Positions 41,505-42,084 of a DNA stretch of 64,000 nt are shown here, piece by piece. Positions within the stretch are counted from its first letter, which is position 1. Every line of letters starts with the position of its first letter. A program made the position numbers and the translations under genes. The stretch covers positions 1,746,001-1,810,000 of the forward strand of contig NZ_CP049905.1 in assembly GCF_011305535.1 (NCBI RefSeq), written 5' to 3'. The notes below the pieces were generated by a model that saw only the letters and a list, made by a program, of their open reading frames with translations, was not told the DNA's origin and did not search any database. This DNA comes from Diaphorobacter sp. HDW4B. Lineage in GTDB: Bacteria > Pseudomonadota > Gammaproteobacteria > Burkholderiales > Burkholderiaceae_C.

Positions 41505-41763
41505 ACTGGCTCCTCGCAAAATGTTCAACCTTGTTGATTCTTGGCCCTCGGGTGTTCAATAGTCAATGGATGTTGTCTTACAGACCGCCCGCATCTTCCG
41601 GTGGGCTTGGCACGGCCCGGTCACGCCAAAGCGTGCGCTTCACACGTCATCCGGATCCGAAATCGCACCAGAACCACGGCAGAAAAGCCCGTTTTAGACC
41701 ACAGTGCTCGCAAATATGGCCTAATAGCGGGTTTAGTGGATTTTTTCTCTAGAGGAGCCAATC

Positions 41764-41931
41764 ATGGGCAACAAGATCGTTACCGAAGCAGACCGCAAGC
41801 GCGCACCCCGTCCAACCCCTATGCCCGGCATGCCTTTGGCAACCGCCGGCCGCGGCCAACGCGTGAGCCTGGAGCGTGGTGTTTCGACTCGCAGCAAGAA
41901 GAACCCTGGCAAGCGTCCGCACCAAGGTTGA
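41764..41931 (+). CDS. Conserved-looking 55-residue basic protein of unknown function
   Basis: This short frame begins at ATG 41764 with AGAGGAG seven to nine bases upstream and ends at a TGA at 41931. The product starts MGNKIVTEADRKRAPRPTPM and ends RSKKNPGKRPHQG; it has about 15 Lys/Arg and no hydrophobic segment. It looks like a real gene because of the strong ribosome-binding site, the intact frame and the codon choice. The function is unknown; its basic composition and size would fit an RNA- or DNA-associated or ribosome-linked protein. It is divergent from the CFA-type gene and no obvious partner follows. Confidence 0.7.
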   Translation: MGNKIVTEADRKRAPRPTPMPGMPLATAGRGQRVSLERGVSTRSKKNPGKRPHQG

Positions 41932-42084
41932 TCCGCAAGGGTCTCTTTCATTCGCTTTGCGACCCGCACTTCACCCGTTGAACTGCGGCGCATTGCGGAT
42001 GGATCTGCTGTAGATTTTCAGTAGCTTTCCGGCTTTTTTTGCTAGCTCGCCTCACTGCACACGCATGCATGCAGTTTCTGAAGC

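Follow-up and report, generated by a model that had tools for sequence, protein, structure and literature searches.

The window, a 64,000-nt stretch of the Diaphorobacter sp. HDW4B genome, contains a small gene at positions 41764-41931 of the forward strand that encodes a strongly basic, 55-residue protein. Judged by comparison with its relatives, this frame is a real protein-coding gene under purifying selection, because a match was found in 128 of 200 genomes of the bacterial family to which HDW4B belongs and because the changes among copies are mostly synonymous. The frame consists of 55 codons whose translation, MGNKIVTEADRKRAPRPTPMPGMPLATAGRGQRVSLERGVSTRSKKNPGKRPHQG, is followed by a stop; coordinates, strand, and product were all exact, and the intact frame described in the initial annotation was thus confirmed. 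Common gene callers work with a lower limit of ~90 nt, so the gene may well already be present in public records as a hypothetical protein.

For detailed comparison, 122 loci were submitted, of which one (L124) did not align, leaving 121; L002-L008 (noise in the HDW4B genome), L130-L144, and L145 were excluded from this set. Counts of 118 omit L125, L128, and L129, which have no ATG at the aligned position. The counts of 118, 115, and 94 used below are not counts of independent genomes, as two collections overlap (e.g., L012 and L040 come from the same genome), and the 118 loci correspond to 91 distinct proteins. None of the 121 loci was frameshifted, an outcome that would have told against the initial annotation, and the intact frame was accompanied in the relatives by a synonymous bias. 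Relative to the closest relative (L009), pS was 0.215 and pN 0.008; the corresponding values were 0.275 and 0.028 against L049, and 0.404 and 0.080 against L010. Among 94 sequences of equal length, 4353 pairs (after exclusion of 18 with pS ≤0.05) had a mean pS of 0.48 and a mean pN of 0.14, and diversity at codon positions 1, 2, and 3 of these sequences was 0.165, 0.117, and 0.389, respectively. The conservation proposed in the initial annotation was therefore strongly supported. It is scarcely credible that the frame is conserved as the by-product of a conserved RNA or an antisense gene: the opposite strand is stop-free, in register, in 107 of 118 loci, but this is taken as a side effect of codon structure, as the variable position is the third of the sense frame, pN lies far below pS, the sole nearby Rfam match is mir-4864 (E 0.99, far under its gathering score), and both the upstream element and the Shine-Dalgarno (SD) sequence point along the sense frame.

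A strong ribosome-binding site at the right distance had also been proposed and is present: the SD sequence AGAGGAG (41751-41757, forward strand) ends six bases 5′ of the ATG at 41764. Among the 118 loci, AGGAG or GGAGG preceded the ATG in 33, and a looser SD-like word, counted without a chance control, was found in 111. The ATG occupied the aligned position in 118 of 121 loci, and L125, L128, and L129 have an upstream ATG of their own.

The predicted protein is basic, proline-rich, and devoid of hydrophobic stretches, as was first described, with 13 K/R against 3 D/E, 7 Pro, 7 Gly, a GRAVY of -1.18, and a pI of 12.0. Its net charge is +10, and values of +9 to +13 were obtained across the 118 homologs. 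Two conserved segments were recognized in alignments. An N-terminal block, MGNKIVTEADR (41764-41796, forward strand), is kept by most members and is altered or lost in divergent ones, and a C-terminal core of approximately GQ[RK]xSxxRGxxTxxKKNPGKR (residues 31-51; 41854-41916, forward strand) was defined from an alignment of 29 members. In that alignment M1, G31, Q32, S35, R38, G39, K45, K46, G49, K50, and R51 are invariant, which makes 10 invariant residues in the core; the rest of the core varies in at least one member. Departures from the core at a single place were observed in L125 (M at 33), L118 (K at 47), and L077 (A at 48). As far as these alignments indicate, MGNKIVTEADR is a feature of the main branch and the C-terminal core is the signature of the family, because the divergent members L128 and L129 differ at the N-terminus yet retain GQ[RK]xSxxRGxxT...KKNPGKR, approximately.

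When the structure was modeled with AlphaFold2 from 40 sequences, mean pLDDT was 63, pTM was 0.20, and the only secondary structure was one short helix at residues 8-13; no fold is predicted, and the protein is predicted to be intrinsically disordered. Searches of Pfam, NCBIfam, and PDB sequences returned no credible match, with E 0.037 for one member against a vertebrate repeat family in Pfam and E 0.11 in NCBIfam. In the 5.39 million papers searched, the peptide words MGNKIVTEAD and RSKKNPGKR were not found, nor was any study pairing Comamonadaceae with ribosome profiling or Acidovorax with small proteins and sORF. A search for conserved, unannotated small proteins of Comamonadaceae gave one Cupriavidus genome paper.

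The 128 matching genomes (E ≤1e-3), HDW4B among them, span 89 of 141 genera, with one match per genome and no internal stops; in about one-third of the sampled family genomes, which are a draw of 200 from a larger group, the search gave no match. Twenty family genomes, consisting of 14 without a match in the first search and six weak positives, were rechecked with a profile. Five of the six weak positives were upheld (G192 was not), and nothing below E 0.03 was found in the other 14. The HDW4B genome itself has a single copy, as its eight other matches all had E-values above 0.09. Among contigs with species names, the best 80 of 231 relatives, which were the ones retained, include Diaphorobacter, Acidovorax, Paracidovorax, Hydrogenophaga, Rhodoferax, Limnohabitans, Curvibacter, Simplicispira, Comamonas, and Pseudorhodoferax.

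Outside the family the gene was nearly absent. In a class-wide search of 369 genomes, the sole matches were three genomes of the family, including HDW4B. An order-wide search of 300 genomes with a narrower profile found eight family genomes and one genome of another family (G707, E 3.7e-4). With a profile that included divergent members, 11 family genomes, again including HDW4B, stood out among 399 genomes of the order, of which at least 12 belong to HDW4B's own family. A single clear out-of-family case was found among these 399 (G881, E 3.1e-29), and the 36 remaining out-of-family matches all had E-values above 0.001, with G707 at 0.00146. Six of these 36 were inspected (L124, L153, L154, L155, L158, and L164) and do not resemble members. 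For G707, which is one of these genomes, the match lies in an open frame of 345 residues with a different sequence that does not look like a member. The G881 copy (L150) is full-length and single, and among the loci compared its nearest counterpart is L111, the Comamonas kerstersii copy (82% of bases). Since this Comamonas-like copy lies ~1 kb from a contig end, transfer and a mixed assembly are both possible. Taken together, the searches indicate a lineage-restricted gene, strongly conserved in one family and found almost nowhere else in the sampled genomes.

That the gene might be mobile or phage-borne was considered and rejected, as plasmid and phage records gave no match at E ≤1, and the window protein had no match in PHROGs. 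Four IMG/VR viral contigs (L170, L171, L172, and L173) encode the protein with 63-71% identity; these may be provirus contigs that include flanking host DNA; alternatively, the gene could lie near prophage sites.

The gene is alone on its strand, because both of its neighbors lie on the opposite one: a cyclopropane-synthase-type methyltransferase gene (PF02353) on the left and a methyladenine glycosylase gene (PF03352) on the right. A DUF1840 gene (PF08895; 39810-40154, reverse strand) is situated to the left of the synthase gene. The synthase gene is directly to the left in only 15 of the 121 loci, and the strands of the left and right neighbors were mixed across the 121 (39, 31, 25, and 21 loci, with 5 undetermined), although neighbors were taken from a simple, composition-based choice of ORFs that may be wrong at single loci. 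A short-gene cluster (L108_1) whose sequence looks like that of the DUF1840 gene was seen upstream of the small gene in seven of the 121. On the 3′ side, 82 of 115 loci have a terminator-like hairpin within 200 nt, vs. five of 115 after one shuffle of each. By the same hairpin test the window copy has no canonical terminator, and another scan gave only two weak, 5-pair candidates on the gene's strand. Its 3′ region nevertheless folds better than its own shuffles (z -2.98), with an imperfect hairpin at 41947-42003 (forward strand) that is not a canonical terminator. The gene also carries a promoter-like element of its own that, by sequence alone, is independent of the neighbors, and the best reading of the arrangement is that of a putative single-gene transcription unit.

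The upstream element, TATGGCCTAATAGCGGGTTT, is located at 41715-41734 on the forward strand. Its conserved part, TRTGGYYTAAT, was found in 58 of 97 upstream regions that had been filtered for this count at an ungapped identity of ≤75% over 130 nt, with related sequences remaining, compared with a mean of 0.02 in shuffled regions. The motif ended 30-60 nt (median, 34) 5′ of the ATG. Bases 3′ of it are also kept, namely an A, a GC-rich stretch, and TTT, and sequence further upstream is hardly kept at all. We read the element as a putative extended -10 consisting of TGG and a hexamer ending in AAT, with no shared -35 and with a GC-rich discriminator. By eye, many of the other 39 regions show a -10-like word in about the same position. 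Against a promoter, no site on the gene's strand was reported by a two-hexamer sigma-70 scan, and the hexamer CCTAAT lacks the A found at the second place of the usual -10 consensus; the element may instead be a protein-binding site. On the -10 reading, the predicted 5′ leader would be ~32 nt (41732-41763, forward strand), and the segment at 41732-41800 has no more stable a fold than its shuffles (z 0.80). Another recurring variant of the element, with TGTTCAAATA in place of TRTGGCCTAATA, was noted by eye in L046, L054, L057, L062, L065, L069, L072, L089, and L095, usually after a run of A and at a similar position.

Genome-wide matches gave no sign of a regulon marked by the element, because exact TRTGGCYTAAT occurs once in the 6.2-Mb genome and its backwards-read control twice; diverged sites would be missed by such a search. 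When up to three mismatches to the 20-base form were allowed, three genome matches were obtained (the site itself, an adjacent inverted near-copy, and one other), against one for the control. The inverted near-copy (41684-41703, reverse strand) lies 11 bases from the element and faces the cyclopropane-synthase gene, for which it could be a divergent promoter. An inverted repeat was discarded as a shared feature, because only one of 58 loci (the window's own) had one at p ≤0.05, which is no more than chance.

Codon usage was scored against 13 ribosomal-protein and elongation-factor genes of the HDW4B genome (in L175), named from their N-termini, and compared with 59 ORFs of the window picked by length and composition, with the amino acids taken as given. 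The small gene had a log-likelihood ratio of 0.181 per codon, which falls inside the leave-one-out range of the reference genes (0.033-0.294) and above the best of the 59 window ORFs (0.018); none of 313 equal-sized (54-codon) pieces of these ORFs reached it. In an earlier codon index, built on a contaminated reference, the small gene stood above only 45 of the 59. In 102 of 118 loci, it scored higher than every flanking ORF of at least 150 aa, and the mean score over the 118 loci was -0.05 vs. -0.21 for the flanks, with a reference drawn from one genome. With the same one-genome reference, 212 of 2435 equal-sized flank pieces from the 118 loci reached the median small gene, and 63 of the 118 small genes were under the 95th percentile of flank pieces. 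Outside HDW4B the codon signal is weaker, and those genomes may have codon preferences of their own. The ribosomal-protein-like codon usage supports, without proving, high expression of the gene in the HDW4B genome.

These results suggest, with slightly less than an even chance by our own estimate, that the gene encodes an abundant, lineage-restricted peptide that binds RNA or the ribosome. In such a scheme, the single-gene unit would yield large amounts of an intrinsically disordered, strongly basic, 55-residue protein whose conserved C-terminal core would be laid onto a structured RNA, most plausibly that of the ribosome, and the protein would serve, within a single bacterial family, either as an accessory ribosome-bound protein or as a factor for assembly or stability. 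Expression would be linked to growth, which we infer from the GC-rich discriminator; discriminators of this type are associated with control by growth rate and ppGpp. By analogy, a very basic, apparently disordered, and probably abundant peptide resembles accessory ribosome-bound proteins. The initial annotation had likewise suggested that the product is nucleic-acid-associated or ribosome-linked. Positive charge, predicted disorder, and codon usage fit that proposal, but neither homology, structure, nor neighborhood shows it: the protein has no homology to ribosomal or RNA-binding families, and no neighbor ties the gene to translation. Moreover, high charge and disorder would be just as compatible with DNA binding or with a protective role, and codon bias reflects the demand for expression and not the location of a protein. 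The lack of a match in about one-third of the sampled family genomes also speaks against the proposal.

Two other roles were weighed on the same features. It is somewhat unlikely that the product is a stress-protective or regulatory protein that binds a protein partner (e.g., RNA polymerase) and not nucleic acid. Disordered small proteins often act via protein partners, and non-basic residues are among the invariant ones (G31, Q32, S35, G39, and G49), but the sequence offers no hydrophobic stretch and no predicted docking helix beyond residues 8-13. A DNA- or nucleoid-associated protein that coats or condenses DNA, to which the net charge, predicted disorder, Gly- and Pro-rich composition, and apparently high expression would all be suited, is unlikely as well; no DNA-binding family was matched, and the lysine-rich repeats carried by known histone-like tails are missing from the sequence. 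Returning to the RNA- or ribosome-binding peptide, a more far-reaching version, in which the Comamonadaceae have in this product a near-stoichiometric ribosomal protein specific to their lineage, with a promoter element that is kept through genome rearrangement and tied to growth rate, is decidedly unlikely.

None of the family libraries searched describes the protein, yet most sampled genomes of one family keep the gene. If it does sit on the ribosome, even the ribosome would carry family-specific parts; if it does not, it would still be a seemingly abundant small protein. The highly conserved upstream element, kept while the neighbors change, would offer a clean promoter for study.

Among known systems, one of the closest in appearance is SRA of E. 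coli (RpsV, formerly S22; PF08136, SRA_like; sra, b1480), which is likewise small (45 aa) and basic (11 K/R, 4 D/E) and, like the window protein, contains KIVTE[AG]D[RK]. In three reports, SRA is described as a basic, 45-residue protein that is tightly bound to the 30S subunit, rises in stationary phase, and has an exact function that is not known (PMC10502375, PMC9959377, PMC10746276). The two differ in that no bdm-like partner was seen alongside the window gene and in that the KIVTE motif is absent from the divergent members L125, L128, and L129, which retain the C-terminal core. A relationship to SRA recognizable only by shared short motifs is very improbable. In its favor, six of the eight motif positions are identical (BLAST single-comparison E 0.006), hhalign gave E 0.00099, albeit with a probability of 21.6 over 11 columns, and an approximate family consensus scored with cheap gaps was matched by only 48 of 20000 shuffles. 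With normal gaps, however, 675 of 20000 SRA shuffles did as well as that consensus, and shuffles of SRA reached the score of the window protein in 1222 of 20000 cases (1001 with cheap gaps), which is not significant. Four divergent members were at chance level against SRA (296, 248, 1162, and 810 of 2000). All of these values are uncorrected for the choice of SRA as the comparison. PF08136 had no match in the HDW4B genome at E ≤10 and none in 339 genomes of the class, and it matched neither any of 40 members (A2) nor any of 29 (A3) at a cut-off of 25 bits, whereas E. coli SRA scored 108.2 bits. Membership in the SRA family was dropped on the basis of the missing PF08136 match, the weak hhalign result, the shuffles, and the divergent members that lack the motif. 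A similar short and very basic peptide is the small-subunit protein bTHX (TIGR04560, 26 positions), which is rich in Gly, Arg, and Lys; it was rejected, as TIGR04560 matched none of 20 genomes at E ≤0.01, HDW4B included, and did match the Thermus control. In being short, conserved, and easily overlooked, the window gene is like the uncharacterized bacterial small-protein families of sORFdb (PMC11796252).
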